Of a stretch of DNA of 40,386 nt, positions 4,776 to 40,386 are shown piece after piece (position 1 is the stretch's first letter; every line of letters starts with the position of its first letter). The DNA is taken from IMG/VR virus record IMGVR_UViG_3300032291_000745, positions 1 through 40,386 of that record; one strand, given 5' to 3'. Position numbers and translations under genes: made by a program. This stretch comes from a virus. The notes beneath the pieces are model-generated. The model made no database searches. It was not told the DNA's origin and was given only the letters and a program-made list of their open reading frames with translations.

Positions 4776-5351
4776 ATGAGAATCAATGAGTACTTTGATA
4801 AAGTAGTAGTGATTAACCTTGATAAGAGGACTGATCGCCTAGAGAAGATAACTAAGCAATTAGATGAACTAGGTATTACCTTTGAAAGATTCTCAGCTAT
4901 TGATGGCACTGGTAAGAATCCAATGTTGGCTGGTAAGGATAGCCACGTTGAGGTATGGAAGCAAAACCTAGGTAAGAAAGTATTAATCCTAGAAGATGAT
5001 GCCTACTTCGTAGAAGGATTCCAGGAACGCTTTGATGAGGTTATCCAAACCTTGCCTGAAGAGTGGGATGTATTCTACCTTGGAGTTTTCTTAGATAAAA
5101 AAACTGGCAAAGTAATTAAAATAAACAATGATTGGTATAGGCAGGTAGTAAGTACTGGAACTCAGGCTTATTGTTTATATCCCGATATGATGCAGTTCTT
5201 TATAGACAGAATAGAAGCCTACGATGGTTATGTAGATGTCGGTCTTAGAATATTAGCAGAAGATACTAACGCTTATATAACACAGCCTAACCTAGTAACA
5301 CAGTATGCAGGTTACTCTGATCTTAGACTTAAAGAGGTTAGTGACTTTTAA
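4776..5351 (+). CDS. GT25-family glycosyltransferase
   Basis: A 191-residue protein beginning with the family signature VVVINLDKRTDR (residues 10-21) and carrying LEDDA at 72-76, the usual acidic metal/nucleotide-sugar site of family 25. This family includes lipooligosaccharide galactosyltransferases and procollagen galactosyltransferases. It is shorter than most cellular members, but the motifs are intact. Its start appears leaderless. It is coupled by a one-base overlap to a second glycosyltransferase. Possible acceptors are the Thr-rich collagen-like fibres or a host surface glycan. Which one is inference. Confidence 0.85.
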   Translation: MRINEYFDKVVVINLDKRTDRLEKITKQLDELGITFERFSAIDGTGKNPMLAGKDSHVEVWKQNLGKKVLILEDDAYFVEGFQERFDEVIQTLPEEWDVFYLGVFLDKKTGKVIKINNDWYRQVVSTGTQAYCLYPDMMQFFIDRIEAYDGYVDVGLRILAEDTNAYITQPNLVTQYAGYSDLRLKEVSDF

Positions 5352-6409
5352 TGAAAACAGCAGTATATACAATAGCTCTTAATGAAGAGAAGCACGTTCA
5401 ACGCTGGTATGACTCCGCTAAAGATGCAGATTATCTATTAATAGCAGATACCGGTTCAACAGATAAGACAGTAGAGATTGCTAAATCTCTTGGTATTAAT
5501 GTAATTAATATCAGAGTAGATCCTTGGCGCTTTGATGATGCTCGTAACGCTGCACTGGCTGCACTGCCAGCAGATATAGATTACTGCGTAATCCTAGATA
5601 TGGATGAGATCCTACAGCCAGGTTGGAAAGACGAACTAGCTGATGCACTAGAACTGGGAATCACTAGACCAGTACATAATATTATTACTGACTGGGAAGA
5701 GGATGGCTCTCCTAAGGTTCAGTTTGATGGCAATAGAATCCACGCTAGGCGTGGCTATCGTTGGAAGAATCCAATACACGAGGTAATAGTTGCCTATAAC
5801 ATTCCTGAAACTAAGGCAAGAATAAAAGCTGAGATACACCACAGACCTGATAACTCTAAGTCTAGAGGACAGTATCTTGGAATGTTAGAGATGGCAGTTC
5901 AAGAACTACCTGATGATTCTCGCAACTACTACTATTTAGGTAGAGAATATTTTTATAAAGAACGCTTTACAGATGCTACTAAGACTTTAAAGAAGTATCT
6001 AGAACTATCTGTATTCAAAGCAGAGAAGTCTTATGCACTTCGGATCTTGGCTAAGACAGATCCTGAGAACGCTGAGAAGTATTTAGAACAAGCAATAGAT
6101 GAATGTCCTAGTAGAGAAGCAGTATTGGGATTAGCAAATCATTATTACCATAAGCAAGACTGGCAGAAATGTTTTCGTATTGCTACAAGGGCTGTTGGTA
6201 TAACAGAGAAGAGAACAGACTTCCTATCGGAAGGATGGGCTTGGACCCATATGGCAGATGACCTTTGTGCTATATCCGCTTGGCAATTAGGCGAGTGGAA
6301 GTTAGCACTAGAGCACGGCACTAAAGCAGTAGAGATAACACCAACAGATGAAAGACTAGTAAATAATCTCAAGTTCTACAGGGAGAAGGTAAATGAGTAC
6401 ACTAAATGA
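5351..6409 (+). CDS. GT2-family glycosyltransferase with TPR-like C-terminus
   Basis: A 352-residue protein. The N-terminal GT-A domain has ALNEE (9-13), DTGSTD (33-38) and the metal-binding DMDE (83-86), all standard for family 2. From about residue 190 the chain becomes helical with TPR-like pairs (NYYYLGREYF, ALRILAK, LGLANHYY). The same order is seen in SunS-type enzymes that glycosylate peptides. The start overlaps the GT25 stop (TAATG), and the 3' end overlaps the next gene by 17 bases. A protein acceptor is plausible but not shown. Confidence 0.85.
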   Translation: MKTAVYTIALNEEKHVQRWYDSAKDADYLLIADTGSTDKTVEIAKSLGINVINIRVDPWRFDDARNAALAALPADIDYCVILDMDEILQPGWKDELADALELGITRPVHNIITDWEEDGSPKVQFDGNRIHARRGYRWKNPIHEVIVAYNIPETKARIKAEIHHRPDNSKSRGQYLGMLEMAVQELPDDSRNYYYLGREYFYKERFTDATKTLKKYLELSVFKAEKSYALRILAKTDPENAEKYLEQAIDECPSREAVLGLANHYYHKQDWQKCFRIATRAVGITEKRTDFLSEGWAWTHMADDLCAISAWQLGEWKLALEHGTKAVEITPTDERLVNNLKFYREKVNEYTK

Positions 6410-11800: not shown

Positions 11801-11836
11801 AAGGCTCATCCCGAAAGGGATGGGCCTTATTTTTTA
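11801..11836 (+). terminator. Strong intrinsic terminator of the late/lysis genes
   Basis: A 12-base-pair stem (arms 11801-11812 and 11817-11828, one G-U pair) with a GAAA tetraloop is followed by TTATTTTTT. It ends the rightward structural-lysis transcription unit. The minus-strand gene that ends at 11840 converges on it, so the hairpin may work from both sides. Confidence 0.9.
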
Positions 11837-11839
11837 TGC

Positions 11840-12133
11840 CTAAAAATCCCTACTAGGATCATCTATTGGACAAGGAACTGTGATTAGATTTCCACAGTTA
11901 GCACAGGTTCCATCTAACATATACCAGCTAATCTCATATTGTGAGAAGGTAGCCATAATATTAAAGACCGTACAACCACAAGGGCAGGTATGTAATGGAC
12001 CAAGGTTTCTAAGATCAGAGCCGAACTTTAATGGAATGTCAGCTTTAATTTTTGGCAGGATTGGTAGACGGAGAATCCGTCTGATACCATCACGCACCTT
12101 AGAGGTGCGTTGGTTCTGCTTTACCTCGCTCAC
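11840..12133 (-). CDS. Zinc-binding-type small protein, start uncertain
   Basis: A reverse-strand reading of 97 residues. The last 60 look like a folded protein: LGPLHTCPCGCTVFN and GTCANCGN supply Cys pairs for one zinc ribbon, with YEISWYMLD between them. The GTG start at 12133 has no clear ribosome site, and the first 35 residues are Arg-rich and coincide with two perfect hairpins, so the true start may lie downstream. It is the only leftward gene between two rightward blocks. Function unknown. Confidence 0.5.
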   Translation of the reverse strand: MSEVKQNQRTSKVRDGIRRILRLPILPKIKADIPLKFGSDLRNLGPLHTCPCGCTVFNIMATFSQYEISWYMLDGTCANCGNLITVPCPIDDPSRDF

Positions 12134-12195
12134 GCTCGGTATTGTAACGACACTCTGGGCCTAGTACAAAGGATCAAGGACTTCACGGCGTGTCG

Positions 12196-12204: not shown

Positions 12205-12229
12205 TCTGCTAAGAGATTAAGGAGGGGTA

Positions 12230-12802
12230 ATGACAACGCTTGTCGGAATACAAACCGATGACACGGTAGTGATGGCTGCGGACTCGCAGATCACTGAAGA
12301 TAACTTACGCACTATCTCAACAGCTACACCAAAGATAGTTGAAGTAGGTAGATATCTAATAGGAATTACTGGTGATACTAGACCAGGAGATATTCTTTCT
12401 TATAACTGGAAACCACCAACATTTAAATCAACAGATGATCCAGTACAACATATGGGTAAGAAAGTTATTCCATCTATCATTAAAGTATTTACTGATGGTG
12501 GTTACGACTGGGCTAATGTTGATAAGAAGGATGGTGGCTTTGACTACCTAATATCTTTTAATGGAAACTTATTCCACATAGCCTGTGATATGTCATTCAT
12601 TCAGAATGATTCAGATCTATACGCTATAGGTTCTGGTGGTCAGTTTGCTACTGGTTATCTATACGCTTGTAAGCAGAAAGTATCTGGTCCTTGGGGACTA
12701 GAACTAGCAGAGGATTTTGCTGAGGAAGCAATCCTTTGTGCGACACGCTTTGATGTAAACACTGGCCTCCCAGTACAAATTGTAACTCAGGATAGAATTT
12801 AA
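12230..12802 (+). CDS. Proteasome-like (HslV/20S beta) Ntn hydrolase
   Basis: A 190-residue protein. After removal of Met1 it begins TTLVGIQTDDTVVMAAD, the beta-subunit start with a catalytic N-terminal Thr. Asp18 matches the conserved Asp17, Lys35 lies close to the conserved Lys33, and AIGSGGQFATGYLYA matches the GSGG segment near the active site. Length fits a single peptidase subunit without propeptide. No ATPase or alpha subunit is nearby, so it may form its own ring or use host partners. A peptidase role is inferred from the motifs. Confidence 0.8.
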   Translation: MTTLVGIQTDDTVVMAADSQITEDNLRTISTATPKIVEVGRYLIGITGDTRPGDILSYNWKPPTFKSTDDPVQHMGKKVIPSIIKVFTDGGYDWANVDKKDGGFDYLISFNGNLFHIACDMSFIQNDSDLYAIGSGGQFATGYLYACKQKVSGPWGLELAEDFAEEAILCATRFDVNTGLPVQIVTQDRI

Positions 12803-12804
12803 TT

Positions 12805-13098
12805 ATGGAGAAGACATTACAGTTCGCACTTAATGAAGCGTATGAGAAGGGATTAATGGACTTGAGTATTGATAAGAAGCCAGATTATGAAGAGGCAAAG
12901 TTAATTGCATTAATAGAATCTTTAAAATTAAGGGGTGATGATTGGCCTCAGGTTTTTATTGATTCTGTTTTAAAGTCTATAGATAATTTAACTTATGCTA
13001 TAACAGCCCATATGATGGACAATTTTGCCGATGATATAGAAACAACTGTAGAAGAAAACCTTGAGTCAATAGAGGAGATGTTAACAGATAATGACTGA
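12805..13098 (+). CDS. Acidic helical protein, unknown
   Basis: A 97-residue protein starting two bases after the Ntn hydrolase stop, with only a weak ribosome site. It is predicted mostly helical, and the last 30 residues are very acidic (DDIETTVEENLESIEEML). No motif is recognised. Close packing with the hydrolase and an 8-base overlap with the nuclease gene suggest joint expression. A partner or substrate-like role for the Ntn hydrolase would be speculation. Confidence 0.6.
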   Translation: MEKTLQFALNEAYEKGLMDLSIDKKPDYEEAKLIALIESLKLRGDDWPQVFIDSVLKSIDNLTYAITAHMMDNFADDIETTVEENLESIEEMLTDND

Positions 13099-14047
13099 TC
13101 CAAAAGAATTATTGCTAGAGGTACTGCGAGCTAAGGATGCTAGTAGATCTCGCTCAACACAGAAGCAGATTGGTCCATCAGAGTTAGGTGGATGTCGGCG
13201 TAAGGTTTGGTATCGTCTTAACGATCAACCTGAAACCAATGACAACGAGATGAAACTCGCTGCCATTATGGGTACTGCTATCCACGCTGCTATTGAGGAT
13301 GCTATCGGTGTTGCTGATCCTAAGGGTGAGAAGTACTGGGTTGAAACATCTGTTGAATACAATGGAATGAAAGCACACATAGATTTATATATACCAGAAA
13401 CCGGAGATGTGATAGATTGGAAAACCGTCAAGGTCAAAAATCTATCCTACTTCCCATCGCAACAACAGCGCTGGCAAGTACAGGTGTATGGCTACTTGCT
13501 TGATAAGTCGGGGAAGGGGAAGCCTCGTACTGTTAATCTTGTAGCCATCGCCCGTGATGGTGATGAGCGTGATGTTAAGGTTTACTCTGAACCATATGAT
13601 CCAGCTATTGCTGAGGAAGCATTGAACTGGTTGGCTGCTATCAAGGAGTCAACAGATGCACCAGAGCCAGAGCGTGATCAAAGTTTCTGTAAGAGTTACT
13701 GCAAATACTATGATGAGTCTGGTGAGATGGGATGCGTTGGTCTAAAAAAAGAACGTATCGCAATTGACGAACAGGTCATTGCGGATGCAGATGTTGATAA
13801 GAACGCACTGCTTTATTTACAATTAGATAATAAGATAAAAGAGCTAGAGAAAGAGAAAGACTCTTTACGTACTAGCTTTGAAGGTTTACTTGGAACTACT
13901 GCTAGTGGTATCCAGGTAAGTTGGACAACAGTTTCCGGTAGGAGTACTGTTGACACAAACGAGGTAGAGAAGTTGCTTGGCTTTGTACCAAAGAAGGAAG
14001 CACCCGATTCACTTCGTTTATTAATCAAACAAACTGGAGGAAAATAA
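13091..14047 (+). CDS. RecB/Cas4-like nuclease with Fe-S cysteines
   Basis: A 318-residue protein. PD-(D/E)XK elements are in order: His65 (GTAIHAAIE), Asp98 (HIDLYI), Asp109-x-Lys111 (VIDWKT) and the QVYGY helix near 131-135. Cys35 plus Cys200, Cys204 and Cys215 give the one-plus-three cysteine layout of AddB/Cas4 iron-sulphur nucleases. The last 100 residues are a coiled-coil extension. It probably processes DNA ends during replication or recombination. It is the first DNA-metabolism gene of the block. Confidence 0.85.
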   Translation: MTDPKELLLEVLRAKDASRSRSTQKQIGPSELGGCRRKVWYRLNDQPETNDNEMKLAAIMGTAIHAAIEDAIGVADPKGEKYWVETSVEYNGMKAHIDLYIPETGDVIDWKTVKVKNLSYFPSQQQRWQVQVYGYLLDKSGKGKPRTVNLVAIARDGDERDVKVYSEPYDPAIAEEALNWLAAIKESTDAPEPERDQSFCKSYCKYYDESGEMGCVGLKKERIAIDEQVIADADVDKNALLYLQLDNKIKELEKEKDSLRTSFEGLLGTTASGIQVSWTTVSGRSTVDTNEVEKLLGFVPKKEAPDSLRLLIKQTGGK

Positions 14048-14413
14048 ATGGCTGCATCCGAGTCAACTAAGTTCCAGATTAACTATAAGTTATCTGATGG
14101 AACTCTTGTAAATATCTATGCAAAAGATCAAGGCGATCTTGAAGCATCACTAACTACCATCGGTGATCTAGCAACACTAGTATCATCAACTGGTTCATCA
14201 TTGGGAGCATCAGCTTCATCAGGATCTGTTGCCTATGCTAAGGCTGCACTAGGTGCAACACCAGCAGCAGCACCAACTGGAGATACACCTGATTGTAAAC
14301 ACGGCTCTATGTCATTCCGTTCTGGCGTAGGTCAAAAGGGTCCTTGGAAGGGTTGGATGTGTGCTGCACCTAAAGGTGCGGTAGACAAGTGCGACACCGT
14401 CTGGGTTAAGTAA
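14048..14413 (+). CDS. Actinophage-type protein with C-terminal Cys motif, possible ssDNA-binding
   Basis: A 121-residue protein with a GGAGG site in the end of the nuclease gene. It has an N-terminal beta segment, an Ala/Ser-rich linker (about 50-80) and a C-terminal part DCKHGSMSFRSG ... WKGWMCAAPKG ... KCDTVWVK with Cys, His and Trp spacing like a zinc-binding fold. Proteins of this shape sit in the replication region of many actinophages and have been suspected to bind single-stranded DNA. No homologue is confirmed here. Confidence 0.6.
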   Translation: MAASESTKFQINYKLSDGTLVNIYAKDQGDLEASLTTIGDLATLVSSTGSSLGASASSGSVAYAKAALGATPAAAPTGDTPDCKHGSMSFRSGVGQKGPWKGWMCAAPKGAVDKCDTVWVK

Positions 14414-14417
14414 CCCT

Positions 14418-14675
14418 ATGCGGGTTCCCTATAAATATGAGAACCCATTATGTAGAGAAACTGCACCTGAGTTATTCTATCCGGACAAAGGTGAAGATAA
14501 AACTCACATAAGATTAGTTAGATCTATTTGTGGTAAGTGTCCCCATCAAGCAGAGTGTGCTGAGTGGGGAGTTACCAATGAGGCACACGGCATATGGGGT
14601 GGACTTGCCCCTAATGAACGTAGAAGAATCCGTATGAGAAGAAGAATTAAATTGAAGGAAGAGAAAGTTGCTTAA
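14418..14675 (+). CDS. whiB: WhiB-family transcription regulator
   Basis: An 85-residue protein with the family's four iron-sulphur cysteines: Cys12, Cys38, Cys41 and Cys47 (C ... CxxCxxxxxC). The GIWGG turn follows at 58-62, then the basic tail RRRIRMRRRIK that binds DNA. WhiB proteins bind the primary sigma factor and are known only from Actinobacteria and their phages, so this is the main host clue. Phage copies may hold down host WhiB-controlled genes. It overlaps the next gene by 8 bases. Confidence 0.95.
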   Translation: MRVPYKYENPLCRETAPELFYPDKGEDKTHIRLVRSICGKCPHQAECAEWGVTNEAHGIWGGLAPNERRRIRMRRRIKLKEEKVA

Positions 14676-15507
14676 TTTATCTAGAGCGTGGAGTGGTACT
14701 ACCACTAAAGCAACGCCATTACCTGATGTCTGGAAGCCACTTGCTGATAAGCATATTAGGTTTCGTAGAGGTCAAGTATGTATGGTAGCTGCTGCGCCTA
14801 ATGCTGGTAAGAGTATGTTCGCTCTTATCTATGCGATCAAAGCAAACGTTCCAACTTTATTCTTCTCTGCTGATACTGACACCGCAACTGTTATGATGAG
14901 AGCAGCCGCTCACCTATCTAACACCAATCAAACTTTGGTGGAAACTAATCTAAATAATAACCGTAATTATTATGATCGCTTCCTAGGAGAAATGAGCAAT
15001 ATCCAATGGGTCTTTGATTCATCACCATCACTAGATGATATTGAGTTAGAGATTAAAGCCTATGTGGAATTGTTTGGTATACCACCAGAGTTGATTGTCA
15101 TTGATAACCTAATGAACGTTGCTGCTGAAACTGATAATGAATGGGCTGGACTTAGAGCTATTATGGTGGAGTTCCACGATATGGCTCGTAAGACTGAGGC
15201 TTGTGTATTAGTACTGCACCACGTCAGTGAACAGAGTGAGTATGGCAAGACTGATTTACCACCTGCTCGTAGATCCATTCACGGCAAGGTAAGTCAACTA
15301 CCTTCTTTAATACTTACACTTGGTTATGATCACGTTAATAGTCAACTGCGTATTGCACCTGTTAAGAATCGTTTTGGTCCACACACAGCCGATGCCTCTG
15401 ATTGGGCTACGCTATTTGTGAACTACGGAGTCTGCCAAATGGTAGATCCAAGTGATCCTTTAGGTCGTATGTATAGGAGAGATGCGGTACTAGGTAATGT
15501 CGGCTAA
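14668..15507 (+). CDS. DnaB-like/RecA-fold replicative helicase ATPase
   Basis: A 279-residue protein from a TTG start inside the end of whiB. Walker A is APNAGKS (43-49) and Walker B is LIVIDN (142-147), followed by a conserved-looking VLHHVSEQS and an SIHGKVSQ segment, as in DnaB-type RecA domains. It lacks the N-terminal domain of cellular DnaB and is short. It probably unwinds or translocates on DNA with the split primase downstream. Confidence 0.8.
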   Translation: MLNLSRAWSGTTTKATPLPDVWKPLADKHIRFRRGQVCMVAAAPNAGKSMFALIYAIKANVPTLFFSADTDTATVMMRAAAHLSNTNQTLVETNLNNNRNYYDRFLGEMSNIQWVFDSSPSLDDIELEIKAYVELFGIPPELIVIDNLMNVAAETDNEWAGLRAIMVEFHDMARKTEACVLVLHHVSEQSEYGKTDLPPARRSIHGKVSQLPSLILTLGYDHVNSQLRIAPVKNRFGPHTADASDWATLFVNYGVCQMVDPSDPLGRMYRRDAVLGNVG

Positions 15508-28505: not shown

Positions 28506-28874
28506 ATGGCAGAGAAAGTTCCACTAGCTGGAGTATCTGGTCCAGGCAAGTTCTCAGTACGAGAAGACTTACCACCATCACAAAATTATGGTGACAGAAA
28601 ACAAATGCAAGAAGATATCGCTGGCGCTCCTACGAGATCAGAGTCTGTTGCAAAACCAACACCACTTACTCCATTATTTGCACCAACAGAACGCCCAGAT
28701 GTCCCAATTACTACTGGCTTACCAATGGGCGAAGGCGCTGGTCCTGAAGCCCTAATGATGAACCAAGGTACTGCGGCTGAAAAGTTATCAGATATTCTAG
28801 CCAAAATGATTCCTTATGATGAAACTGGCGAAGTAGTAGTTCTTTATCAGCAGGCTTTAGCAAGAGGTCAATAG
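28506..28874 (+). CDS. Pro-rich protein, 122 residues
   Basis: A GGAGG site precedes the ATG. The chain is Pro-rich and disordered for about 80 residues, then helical (TAAEKLSDILAKMIPYDETG, VVLYQQALARGQ). Its stop overlaps the next gene's GTG (TAGTG). A partner of the large protein downstream or a head-assembly factor is plausible, but no homologue is recognised. Confidence 0.6.
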   Translation: MAEKVPLAGVSGPGKFSVREDLPPSQNYGDRKQMQEDIAGAPTRSESVAKPTPLTPLFAPTERPDVPITTGLPMGEGAGPEALMMNQGTAAEKLSDILAKMIPYDETGEVVVLYQQALARGQ

Positions 28875-31800
28875 TGTCAGACCCTTTATCCACTTCCTCT
28901 TTTGCAGCCGGTATATCTCCAGCAGAAAAGAAGAAGATTGATGAACTGCGTAAGACGTTAAACGTACATCGTGAGTTATCAAATCTTCCATCTGATGTAG
29001 CTAAAAGAGTTGTAACTAATTATACACCTGAGCAACAAAAAGCATTAGTAAATGTTGCTGGTGAAGAAGACCCAACGGTTAAACCTAAGCAAGGTTGGTT
29101 TGGCAGTGCTTGGGATTACACTGGTGGCAATGTTATAAAAGCTGGTGGCCAACTACTTAAAGGCCTTAACTACGTATCAGACCTATCAACTCAAGCAGCT
29201 CGTGCTGGAATCATTGCTGTTGAAGAAGGTAAATCACTAGGTACCGCTTGGACTGAAGCAGGCATTAGTGGTGAAAATAAGTTTAACGAAAATAGGCTTG
29301 AATCTGCTCGTAAAAAATATGGTGTAGATGCAGTAGATGTGGCAATTCGTCTTTCATCTGGTGAATCACCTGAGGCTATCGCAGCCTCTGCTACTCCTAC
29401 TCAATTAAAATACTTATCTTTAGCGGATAAAACACAAGGCTCTAAAGAAGAGCGAGATAACTTTCAGGATACACTTGATTCAGTAAGTGCTGCAAAGTAT
29501 TCTCCTGGTAGAGCAATAGCAAATATTGTAGATGCTATTACGCCTGGTGATTTAGTAAAAAATGGATTTATTTACAAAGGTATATCTGGCTTTTATGATG
29601 CTACTTATCGTATCTTTGCAGATCCATTATTAGTTGTTGGTAAAATAAAGCGTGGAATTGATGTAAGTAGATACGCATTAGATGTAGTAATTGGTAACAA
29701 AAAAGTAGCAGAAGTATTCTCAGAACCAAGGGTTGCAGATTTTTGGAATCGTTATGGAACAGAATTATCAAACTTCCGTAAGGCTAAAAAAGAAGGAAAC
29801 ACTAACGCTAAGATTGCAGCAGAAAAACAACTACAGACTCTTGCTCCTGAATTTGGCCCATTAGTCGTTAAAAGTTTTAATGATGCTGATCTTCCGATAT
29901 CTGATGCTTTAACTGCTAAGGCTTTCTTTGAGAACGCTAAGCAAGTAGATGAAATGATGAAAGGCTCTATTGGTCGTAAGCGAGTGTTAATTCCTCGTAT
30001 GGATGCTGCTCGTAAAACGAGAGTAACATTTTTAACTACTGCTAATAAACTTTTTAATATAGATAAAATTGGCCCATCTTTAGTAAGTAATACTTTCTTT
30101 GGTGCAAGCGCCACAGACGATGGTATTGCTCAAGCGCTTATAAACGGTAAAGAAGAAATCATTACAAACGTTAAAGCTACTATGAAACCTAAAGCGACTG
30201 CTCGTTTGTCTATGGCTCAAATTAACTACCGAATTGATAGATTTAAAGCAAAGTTTGCAATTGCTCCTTTATTTAGAGATGACACTTTTGACGTATTAGA
30301 TCCTAATGCTTCAACTCAAATTTACCGCTTGGCTCGTGTGGTACTTCCTCAAAAAGAATCTAAGTTGATTGCTTCAGCCTTTGATTCTATTGAAGATACT
30401 GCTCGCCGTAAAGATGTATTTTACGGATTATGGTCAACCATTGCAGATGTTCGTGGTCTTAACGCCACAGAACCAGGACAACTTATTGTCCGTAGATTAA
30501 CTGGTAAGGGTGAAACTAGATTTGCCGCTACTCGTCTTGGAGAGAATCCAGCGTTAATTGATGGAGAGCAATTAGGTCTTATTGTATCTGACCTATCCTC
30601 AATGGTGACTGCTCCTAATATCGTAGATATTGATAGAGCAGCAGCTCGTAGTACAATAGTACAAAAGATACTTGGTCAGGCTAACAAAGACTGGGTAGAC
30701 AAGATGACAGGCACTTGGTCATTCTTAACTCTTGCTGGACCTCGTTACGCACTTCGTAATGCAACAGAAGATCTAATGGTTAATATTGCTATTGGTCAAT
30801 CTACTTGGGGAATCGCTAAAGGAAGATTGTTATCTACTAGATTAAACACTGCTAGAGGTGTAGGTAAAGGTTTAACTAAAGGTGAGAAGCGAGCATCCAA
30901 TCCACTTGGTAGCGCTTTGCGTATTCTTAACAAAAAAGAAGCAGATAGATTTGCTGCGGAAATAGCAGGCCTAGACGATAGCATTACATCTACTCGTAAA
31001 GAAATTGCTAATCTTAAAAAGAGTGCAAAATTAGAAACTAATCCTAAGAAAAAGCAAGCACTAGAAGATAAGATAAAAGAGTTATCTGCTAAAACTAAAG
31101 GTGGGTCTGTATATCAGACTCGTGTTATCTTTGCTCGTGCCTTAAATGAGGGTAAGTTAAATAGAGCATTTGCTAAGTTAGGTAGAGGTCCTCTTAATAA
31201 AGAAGAGTCAGATCTCCTAGCTGATCAAATCCTTAACGGTGATCTAGATAACGCACTTGCTGATGTTATTGAGGCAAGTACTAACTTTGCTGTAGGTAAT
31301 GATTACTCAACAGCCGCTAGACAGTTTACAAAAAAACACGGCGTTCGTAGTGTTGCTCTTAAAATAGATACTCCTAATAACTATGCCCGTGCTAAAGGAT
31401 CTCCTGGATATAAAGAGATACGAGTTGCAGCGCAAAGTGAATCATCACTTATTGCTTGGCTAATGCGTATTTCATATTATTCAAATGATGAATTAGGTGC
31501 TATTGCTGTAGCAAATCTTGATGATAAAGGTTTGGCTATTGCAAAAATTAAACAATGGTTTAAGAGTAATCCTGATACTGCTAAGCAGTTCCGATTTCAA
31601 ACTGTTAGAACTCAAGATGAACACGCTGAGGCTATCTATAACTCAGCACGTCAATTATTTGAGAAGCAAGATCCAACTCAACTTAACCTAGATTTGCTAA
31701 GCAAGGTTCGCTCTATTGACGAAGAAACTGGAGAGTATGTAATCTCTGGTAAGTTATCTTTAGATGACCTACCTAAGGTAGATGCTGATTTACCTAATTA

Positions 31801-33706
31801 CGTAATTGGTCCAGAGTTGGTTCCAATATCTGATACTGGAAACTACACAACTTCTCTAATGGAAAAGGGATGGACCTGGCTTGGTCTATCTAACGCTCGT
31901 ATGTCTAGAGAGCCTATTGTTCTTGCTGAGATGATTCGTATGCGTACGCAAATGCGTAAGACTGGATTTGAAGATGCTTTTATTCAAGCACATCTAAAGG
32001 ATGTAGATCCAACAGATCTGAAGAAGATTGAATCAGCTACCCTAATCGCTAAAAGAAAAATAGCAGAGATCGCTGAAGAGCGAGCAACGCTACAAACTTT
32101 GGCTTATGTGGATAATCCACTGATTAGAAGCCAACTTGCTTTCTCTATTCGTAACTTCGCTCGTTTCTATCGGGCTACTGAAGACTTCTATCGCCGTGTT
32201 TATAGAGCAGTACGCTATAACCCTGAGTCAATTCAGAAGGCAGCATTAACCTATGAGGGAATTACTCATTCTGGTTGGGTACAAAGAGATGACCAAGGTG
32301 AACCTTACTTCATCTACCCAGGAGTAGAGCCTGTATATCGTGCAGTTCAAACTGCATTACAAGGTTTAGGTGTACCTGCTGAGTTTAAGACTCCATTACC
32401 TATTCAATTTGGCGCACAATTTAAGATGCTTACACCATCCCTAAACGCTGAGTCTTGGGTACCAACATTCGCTGGTCCTTTATCTGGTGTGTCAGTTAAG
32501 GTTCTATCTAATATTGTAGATATTTGGAACCCTGGTGCTGCAGATAGCATTACCCGTTTCACGATGGGTAAGTATGCAGTAGATCAACCTATGGTTTCTG
32601 CTTTTCTACCAGCACATATTAATCGTTTATACGCAGCAATGGATCGTGATGAGAGAGATTCTCAATACGCATCAGCTTGGCGTAAAGCTGTTACATACCT
32701 TGAGGCATCAGGTAATGGTATTCCAAAGAAGTATGAAATGGTCGGTGGAGTTGAAACTCTTATTGCACCAAGTCCTGCTGAGTTAGAAGAGTATCGCTTA
32801 AAAGTTAAGAATACAACCATCGCTATTTTAGGAACTCGTTTTATATTAGGCTTTGCAGTGCCTGCATCACCTCAAGTACAACTTAAATCTGATATGACTG
32901 ACTGGTTAAGAGATTCAGGCAGAGCAAGTTTTAAGCAATCTTGGAATAATCTATTAGATCAGTATCCTGGTGATTATGATGCAGCAATGGCTAAGTGGAC
33001 AGAGTTATATCCTAACCAGATTCCATTTACTATTCCAGAATCAGAGCGAAAGACAGTTGCTCCATTCCGTTATGCTGAGGAATCAGGAGATTTTGTAGAT
33101 CAAAACAAAGAACTATTTGATAAATACAAAGAAGGCGCTGCTTTCCTAATACCTCATAAGTCAGGTTTCTCTTGGGATGCCTATAAGACTATGACCGATA
33201 TGGGTCTACGTCAGAATAAAAGAGTAGAGGATTACCTGCGAGAAGTACAAACCGCAGCAGATCTACAAACTTATTATGAGCGTAAAGAACAGTTTGAAAC
33301 AAGTCTTGAAACTGCAGGTATTGACTACACTCGTTCTAAACTACGTAAAGAGTTTAATAGCTGGAAAGAACTATTCTTTGCTGGTAGACCACTAGTTCAA
33401 GAAGAGTTATCTCAAGGTAGCCAAAAGGCTATTAATCGCTTAACCGCATTAGATGATCTAAGCAATATGCTTGATGATCCTACTATTACTGCACGACCTG
33501 CAACACAGGGTGCATTAAAGAAAATGGTTGATTTATACAATAAGTATAAAAACGATCAAGATAGATACGACAATCTTAGTGGTTCATCATTCTTGGCATC
33601 TTTGTCTAAAGATAGAACTATCAAGGAAATGAGAGAACTAGCTTTGTTCAATGAAAATACACAAGCAGCATACGATGTTTTATTCGGTAGATTGTTAGGG
33701 GAGTAA
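28874..33706 (+). CDS. Very large virion protein, probably internal/ejected
   Basis: A 1610-residue protein with a GTG start. It is mostly helical, with Lys/Ala-rich segments and an internal Lys-rich coiled part (about 700-745). Neither a transglycosylase Glu motif nor a tape-measure-like repeat was seen. Lying between portal and capsid, and comparable in size to or larger than the inner-core ejection proteins of short-tailed phages (T7 gp16 class), it may be carried in the head and injected. Its C-terminal 300 residues hold many Tyr/Arg pairs. Confidence 0.6.
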   Translation: MSDPLSTSSFAAGISPAEKKKIDELRKTLNVHRELSNLPSDVAKRVVTNYTPEQQKALVNVAGEEDPTVKPKQGWFGSAWDYTGGNVIKAGGQLLKGLNYVSDLSTQAARAGIIAVEEGKSLGTAWTEAGISGENKFNENRLESARKKYGVDAVDVAIRLSSGESPEAIAASATPTQLKYLSLADKTQGSKEERDNFQDTLDSVSAAKYSPGRAIANIVDAITPGDLVKNGFIYKGISGFYDATYRIFADPLLVVGKIKRGIDVSRYALDVVIGNKKVAEVFSEPRVADFWNRYGTELSNFRKAKKEGNTNAKIAAEKQLQTLAPEFGPLVVKSFNDADLPISDALTAKAFFENAKQVDEMMKGSIGRKRVLIPRMDAARKTRVTFLTTANKLFNIDKIGPSLVSNTFFGASATDDGIAQALINGKEEIITNVKATMKPKATARLSMAQINYRIDRFKAKFAIAPLFRDDTFDVLDPNASTQIYRLARVVLPQKESKLIASAFDSIEDTARRKDVFYGLWSTIADVRGLNATEPGQLIVRRLTGKGETRFAATRLGENPALIDGEQLGLIVSDLSSMVTAPNIVDIDRAAARSTIVQKILGQANKDWVDKMTGTWSFLTLAGPRYALRNATEDLMVNIAIGQSTWGIAKGRLLSTRLNTARGVGKGLTKGEKRASNPLGSALRILNKKEADRFAAEIAGLDDSITSTRKEIANLKKSAKLETNPKKKQALEDKIKELSAKTKGGSVYQTRVIFARALNEGKLNRAFAKLGRGPLNKEESDLLADQILNGDLDNALADVIEASTNFAVGNDYSTAARQFTKKHGVRSVALKIDTPNNYARAKGSPGYKEIRVAAQSESSLIAWLMRISYYSNDELGAIAVANLDDKGLAIAKIKQWFKSNPDTAKQFRFQTVRTQDEHAEAIYNSARQLFEKQDPTQLNLDLLSKVRSIDEETGEYVISGKLSLDDLPKVDADLPNYVIGPELVPISDTGNYTTSLMEKGWTWLGLSNARMSREPIVLAEMIRMRTQMRKTGFEDAFIQAHLKDVDPTDLKKIESATLIAKRKIAEIAEERATLQTLAYVDNPLIRSQLAFSIRNFARFYRATEDFYRRVYRAVRYNPESIQKAALTYEGITHSGWVQRDDQGEPYFIYPGVEPVYRAVQTALQGLGVPAEFKTPLPIQFGAQFKMLTPSLNAESWVPTFAGPLSGVSVKVLSNIVDIWNPGAADSITRFTMGKYAVDQPMVSAFLPAHINRLYAAMDRDERDSQYASAWRKAVTYLEASGNGIPKKYEMVGGVETLIAPSPAELEEYRLKVKNTTIAILGTRFILGFAVPASPQVQLKSDMTDWLRDSGRASFKQSWNNLLDQYPGDYDAAMAKWTELYPNQIPFTIPESERKTVAPFRYAEESGDFVDQNKELFDKYKEGAAFLIPHKSGFSWDAYKTMTDMGLRQNKRVEDYLREVQTAADLQTYYERKEQFETSLETAGIDYTRSKLRKEFNSWKELFFAGRPLVQEELSQGSQKAINRLTALDDLSNMLDDPTITARPATQGALKKMVDLYNKYKNDQDRYDNLSGSSFLASLSKDRTIKEMRELALFNENTQAAYDVLFGRLLGE

Positions 33707-39024: not shown

Positions 39025-40386
<1,362 letters not shown>

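Follow-up and report, generated by a model that had tools for sequence, protein, structure and literature searches.

The window analyzed here, a virus record of 40,386 bases with 42% G+C, carries a gene for a proteasome-beta/HslV-like N-terminal-threonine hydrolase, and on balance this hydrolase is likely to be an active, probably ring-forming, ATP-independent protease with an accessory role in infection. The genes of its family are referred to below as beta. Relatives were gathered from IMG/VR, whose records may be fragments, in several scans; clade 1 is the clade of the window, and locus counts cover retrieved top-80 sets, not whole populations.

The hydrolase gene and its active site

The product of the open reading frame (ORF) at 12230-12802 starts MTTLVGIQTDDTVVMAADSQ. 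The features of the gene and of the ORF that follows it are:

12220-12225, plus strand: AGGAGG, Shine-Dalgarno-like, 4 nt 5' of the hydrolase ATG (read from the sequence)
12230-12802, plus strand: proteasome-beta/HslV-like N-terminal-threonine hydrolase, 190 aa, ATG start (family matches, invariant catalytic residues, predicted fold)
12233-12235, plus strand: codon of Thr2, within the hydrolase ORF
12281-12283, plus strand: codon of Asp18, within the hydrolase ORF
12332-12334, plus strand: codon of Lys35, within the hydrolase ORF
12629-12640, plus strand: codons of GSGG (residues 134-137), within the hydrolase ORF
12752-12754, plus strand: codon of Asp175, within the hydrolase ORF
12761-12763, plus strand: codon of Thr178, within the hydrolase ORF
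12805-13098, plus strand: acidic small ORF, 97 aa, a variable neighbour that is absent or replaced in relatives

The initial annotation was headed with the range 12230-13098. The first ORF in that range is the hydrolase, and the range also takes in the second ORF at 12805-13098, which is unrelated. The Pfam family PF00227 (Proteasome) matched the hydrolase with 35.4 bits against a cut-off of 22.4, and in PHROGs v4 phrog_1040 ('peptidase HslV family') matched residues 1-189 with E=2.4e-29. Thr2, Asp18, Ser19, Lys35, Gly48, Gly134 and Gly136 were identical in the alignment of distinct full-length sequences (207/207). Four of these residues, Thr2, Asp18, Lys35 and Gly48, are equivalent to the catalytic Thr1, Asp17 and Lys33 and the oxyanion Gly47 of the superfamily, and a profile built from 59 relatives aligned residue 2 to the catalytic Thr of the PDB chains of HslV and BPH, which is residue 1 of the mature protein. 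Asp175 and Thr178 correspond to Asp166/Ser169 of the 20S subunit and are kept across the clade of the window, though not throughout every phage clade; position 178 was Thr or Ser in 203 of the 207 distinct relatives. The residues first cited as marks of a hydrolase (Thr2, Asp18, Lys35 and GSGG) are present as stated; the profile alignment places Thr2 at the active site, and Thr2, Asp18 and Lys35 are all invariant.

The family match and the conservation of the active site are far beyond chance. Values of dN/dS were about 0.06-0.25 for most pairs within the clade of the window and, as judged from the sequences, the gene is selected as an enzyme. The start codon was immediately 5' of the Thr codon in all relatives checked (first set). 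Because the ATG directly precedes this Thr, removal of the initiator Met should expose the nucleophile in a propeptide-free protein.

Predicted fold and relationships

An AlphaFold model of the hydrolase with 59 diverse sequences as input had a pLDDT of 91 and a pTM of 0.87; an earlier model from 33 close sequences (pLDDT 52) was discarded. The model has the beta sandwich and flanking helix pairs of the superfamily fold, with helices at residues 51-59, 71-89 and 94-101 between S4 and S5. The nearest solved folds were BPH of Thiobacillus (E 1.5e-12, TM about 0.7), then HslV and then 20S beta subunits, each with a Foldseek probability of 1.00. TM-scores to solved homologues were 0.6-0.7, and such moderate values suggest that the quaternary structure of the hydrolase may differ from theirs. 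The 59-sequence profile matched HslV (1.7e-13) and full-length BPH (2.4e-12). With HslV and BPH as its top matches in both sequence and structure, the hydrolase is a group I homologue (HslV/BPH/AAH/CPH/PPH).

The curated models of narrower families did not claim the protein. It scored 30 bits where 137 are needed and 29 where 158 are needed against the curated HslV models, it was far under the curated archaeal beta cut-off, and TIGR03690 (bacterial 20S beta, PrcB) gave no match at E<=0.1, which leaves it outside both HslV and PrcB as curated. In the tree, the phage proteins together with homologues from rhizobial plasmids and Gram-negative phages split from BPH plus HslV with support of 100/97, and BPH formed a clade of its own (98/97) with the phage group outside it. 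Of the checks first suggested for this protein, structure prediction and family comparison place it within the superfamily, on the HslV/BPH side, and phylogeny places it outside the BPH clade.

Several known families invite comparison. The phrog_1040 family, which the window protein matches, has members in phages of many hosts; it is a broad model (277 positions), and the function of the family is predicted only. Fuchs, Alva and Lupas (2021; PMC8665760) described phage PPH (proteasome homologue of phages and their hosts) and AAH among 22 new proteasome-like families, to which they assigned neither a function nor AAA+ partners. PPH is like the actinophage family in being phage-encoded, in belonging to group I and in having no AAA+ partner, and its probable representatives (the rhizobial and Gram-negative phage proteins) are those that group with the actinophage proteins at 100/97, apart from BPH and HslV. 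However, PPH proteins have about 140 aa and lack helix H2, whereas the actinophage family mostly has 178-210 aa and the model has at least two helices between S4 and S5. The window hydrolase was rejected as a PPH, with its 190 aa and the helices present between S4 and S5. AAH, compared by description, is likewise a group I family found in many phages, but it is reported to be commonest in actinobacterial genomes, whereas the window family is phage-borne and near-absent, by motif scan, from 84,980 species genomes. BPH (5ovs, 5ovu) and HslV are the best structural neighbours, with aligned active sites and about 16-22% identity to the hydrolase, and BPH apparently works without an unfoldase, as is proposed here for the hydrolase. 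Even so, BPH and HslV form clades separate from the phage proteins, and the hydrolase lies far under the HslV cut-offs.

Homologues in named phages belong to the same fold family and occupy other positions. These are the 'protease' genes of Arthrobacter phage Hum25 and Microbacterium phage Pumpernickel, the 'HslV' of phage DSL-LC01, which adjoins WhiB, and unannotated genes of the Planktophila phages LanE43AprE7/F5 (OX376640/41). The DSL-LC01 and Planktophila homologues are about 32-35% identical to the window hydrolase. GenBank labels on actinophage homologues read 'protease' or 'ATP-dependent protease subunit'.

Distribution and host

The beta family is found in freshwater actinophages at hundreds of IMG/VR loci, and phages that infect E. 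coli, Vibrio and Geobacillus have similar genes. For cellular relatives, two motif scans over 84,980 species genomes gave 0 and 1 match, with the caveat that these scans of genome contigs relied on short conserved motifs, which divergent cellular members may escape. The single match (L256), a clade-3 beta, scores like a phage member; it is carried by a phage-like contig that was binned, probably wrongly, with a MAG labelled Gammaproteobacteria. When 398 genomes from the phylum of that MAG were searched with a profile, the hits apart from L256 were BPH and HslV with at most 59 bits, whereas phage members scored 159-243 bits. The family appears to be almost virus-only and near-absent from bacterial genomes.

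The window has WhiB and mycobacteriophage gp49-like genes. Its exonuclease is closest to those of Mycobacterium, Arthrobacter and Gordonia phages, and its terminase is 42-44% identical to those of Streptomyces phages and of OX376640 and OX376641, both of which carry a beta homologue and are the genomes of the cultivated 'Ca. Planktophila' phages (PMC10202952). Taken together, the WhiB and gp49-like genes, the kinship of the exonuclease and terminase and the link to the Planktophila phages suggest that the host is very probably a freshwater actinobacterium. A literature search for proteasomes of Nanopelagicales found no papers.

Other parts of the window were also noted. Two glycosyltransferase-type genes (Glyco_transf_25; Glycos_transf_2 with TPR repeats) are located in the tail region at 4776-6409, and glycosyltransferases have likewise been reported for the Planktophila phages. 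A 1610-aa protein without a PHROG match is encoded at 28874-33706, and a protein of similar length, about 1600 aa, occupies the corresponding place behind the portal module in the sister clade. Collagen-repeat and tail-fibre-like proteins are found at both ends of the record (88-516 and 39359-40384), which suggests that the record was cut inside a tail-fibre region.

Genomic context of beta

Around the hydrolase gene the window contains:

11801-11828, plus strand: strong intrinsic-terminator-like hairpin, 12-bp stem then T run, 3' of the lysis genes, at the boundary between the late block and the block led by beta
11840-12133, minus strand: divergent small ORF upstream of beta, 97 aa, CxC...CxxC zinc-ribbon-like, in 59/59 clade-1 loci with upstream sequence among the matches listed
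12186-12195, plus strand: conserved 10-mer CGGCGTGTCG between beta and the divergent ORF (core conservation; one site in the window)
13091-15507, plus strand: block of exonuclease (PD-(D/E)XK), gp49-like protein, WhiB and DnaB-like helicase 3' of beta (Pfam/PHROG matches, locus comparison)

The order in clade 1 is lysis genes, hairpin, minus-strand zinc-ribbon-like ORF, beta, exonuclease, gp49-like gene and DnaB. Among the matches listed, beta was 5' of the exonuclease, gp49-like and DnaB genes in all 63 clade-1 loci, and a search based on the exonuclease found beta upstream in 50/50 loci. In these 50 listed loci, all from phages of the type of the window, beta opens the rightward early block, which supports the initial description of a hydrolase in a phage early block. 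The minus-strand ORF had no match in Pfam, PHROG or PADLOC. Of the 48 distinct clade-1 upstream regions among the matches listed, 46 had the core GGCGTGTC, in either orientation, no more than 130 nt ahead of beta, and the orientation of the CGGCGTGTCG element differs among subclades. This element is probably an operator or a promoter element, and it is operator-like. No sigma-70-like promoter was found upstream of the hydrolase gene, and Rfam and tRNA scans of the window gave no match.

The absence of an ATPase or alpha subunit gene, first noted for the surroundings of the hydrolase, extends to the phage records compared. All 22 contained one superfamily homologue per genome and no alpha subunit, and none contained a ClpX/HslU-type AAA_2 protein (0/22). 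PF00004 matched only the KaiC/DnaB-like replication helicase that adjoins the gp49-like gene in the sister clade, and a dedicated phage unfoldase was therefore rejected. The acidic ORF does start 2 bases past the hydrolase stop, as described, but its proposed role as a partner is not supported by conservation. Beta and the exonuclease are separated by 0 to 3 variable small ORFs; in one relative (L003) the exonuclease starts 6 bases past beta with nothing in between, and other relatives have unrelated or differently built small ORFs at this place. This variation argues that the acidic ORF is no partner.

Beta also has a second genomic home. In a sister group that includes the cultivated 'Ca. 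Planktophila' phages, beta was directly 3' of the portal gene in 64/64 loci of the first set among the matches listed, and a portal-based search found it 17-114 nt past the portal in 59 of 67 listed loci. Eight of the 67 listed portal loci had no beta and retained the same downstream genes. Two near-complete genomes of this group (G022 and G026), with portals 86-87% identical, have no beta anywhere, which suggests that beta is dispensable there. The beta proteins at the portal site do not make up one clade: most belong to clade 2, L343 groups with the clade of the window (95/90), and L346/L347 form an isolated pair. The presence of several beta clades at one site suggests that the gene was repeatedly replaced or moved. 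Part of clade 3 has beta flanked on one side by a metallophosphoesterase gene and on the other by portal, scaffold-like and capsid genes, with the portal downstream in 17 loci among the matches listed; other clade-3 members have beta near WhiB. In 27 of 74 clade-3 loci among the matches listed, the gene immediately preceding beta encoded the metallophosphoesterase (phrog_20266; L193:3802-5001 and relatives), and a functional link between the two is possible.

Proposed role and alternatives

The model proposed here is that the hydrolase acts as an N-terminal-threonine peptidase of group I, on the HslV/BPH side. Once the initiator Met is removed, Thr2 would become Thr1 with no propeptide step, and the subunit would probably self-assemble, like HslV and BPH, into a single or double ring that encloses a shielded chamber. 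The enzyme would operate without a dedicated ATPase, for which the work of BPH without an unfoldase and the new homologues for which no AAA+ interactors were found (PMC8665760) provide a precedent. During infection it may act on proteins that are small or unfolded, or else on a few specific targets, and its role would be that of an accessory infection protease rather than an essential head-assembly factor. Because beta is the first early-block gene in the clade of the window, early synthesis would be expected; however, the head-module position in the sister clade does not fit a purely early role.

A more specific role, as a protease that serves host takeover or counter-defence by acting early on one or a few specific targets such as a defence protein, a sigma or anti-sigma factor or a repressor, is plausible but rather unlikely. 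Anti-host genes are often accessory and found at varying genome sites, as beta is; in addition, beta is first in the clade-1 early block beside replication and WhiB genes, and its active site is under strong selection. On the other hand, there was no PADLOC match, and the placement in the head module of the sister clade does not favour such a role. That placement would suit a head protease that processes portal, scaffold or capsid proteins in place of a prohead protease, as would the single beta copy per genome and the clade-3 loci with beta just 5' of the portal, scaffold-like and capsid genes. We regard this as less likely still, since the eight portal loci without beta, two near-complete genomes among them, keep the same portal and following genes, and these absences weaken the case for an essential prohead protease. 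Additionally, a tblastn search with beta had no Streptomyces phage among the groups listed even though portal and terminase are shared, and in the clade of the window beta leads the early block, with a terminator separating it from the lysis genes.

A non-proteolytic Ntn enzyme, for example a connectase-like protein ligase or an amidase, appears improbable. Connectase is an example of a proteasome-like fold acting as a non-protease (PMC8665760), and the TM-scores of the hydrolase to proteases are moderate, but its closest relatives are proteases and its model lacks a connectase-like S3/S4 helical insertion. A monomeric, connectase-like enzyme is possible. The suggestion that the hydrolase might enter or compete with the host 20S proteasome has fared worst and is now very improbable. 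An actinobacterial host is likely from WhiB and the exonuclease and terminase relatives, and many actinobacteria have 20S proteasomes. However, the hydrolase is nearest to BPH/HslV rather than to bacterial 20S beta, with no TIGR03690 match and scores below all of these curated cut-offs, and it has no propeptide, whereas bacterial 20S beta assembly uses one. Homologues are also present in phages of Gram-negative and Firmicute hosts, and none of E. coli, Vibrio or Geobacillus is known to have a 20S proteasome.

Phage proteasome homologues as a kind are already known, so far from bioinformatics only, and no experiments on phage members were found in the literature. What this study adds is their scale, the near virus-only range, the invariant catalytic residues, the two genomic homes, the dispensability and a cultivated test system. 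The superfamily is common in freshwater actinophages, whereas Fuchs et al. (2021) found no Actinobacteria-specific phage with AAH (PMC8665760). As two cultivated 'Ca. Planktophila' phages encode a homologue, the role of a viral proteasome-like enzyme can be tested with phages and host in culture. A bolder and for now doubtful proposal concerns a branch of the superfamily that would be restricted to viruses and that abundant freshwater actinophages carry as one copy per genome, at the head of the early block or behind the portal. Its proteins may form small chambers that work without ATP and destroy one particular host or phage protein. If this is true, the virus-restricted chamber protease would be a so far undescribed system of proteolytic takeover or counter-defence.
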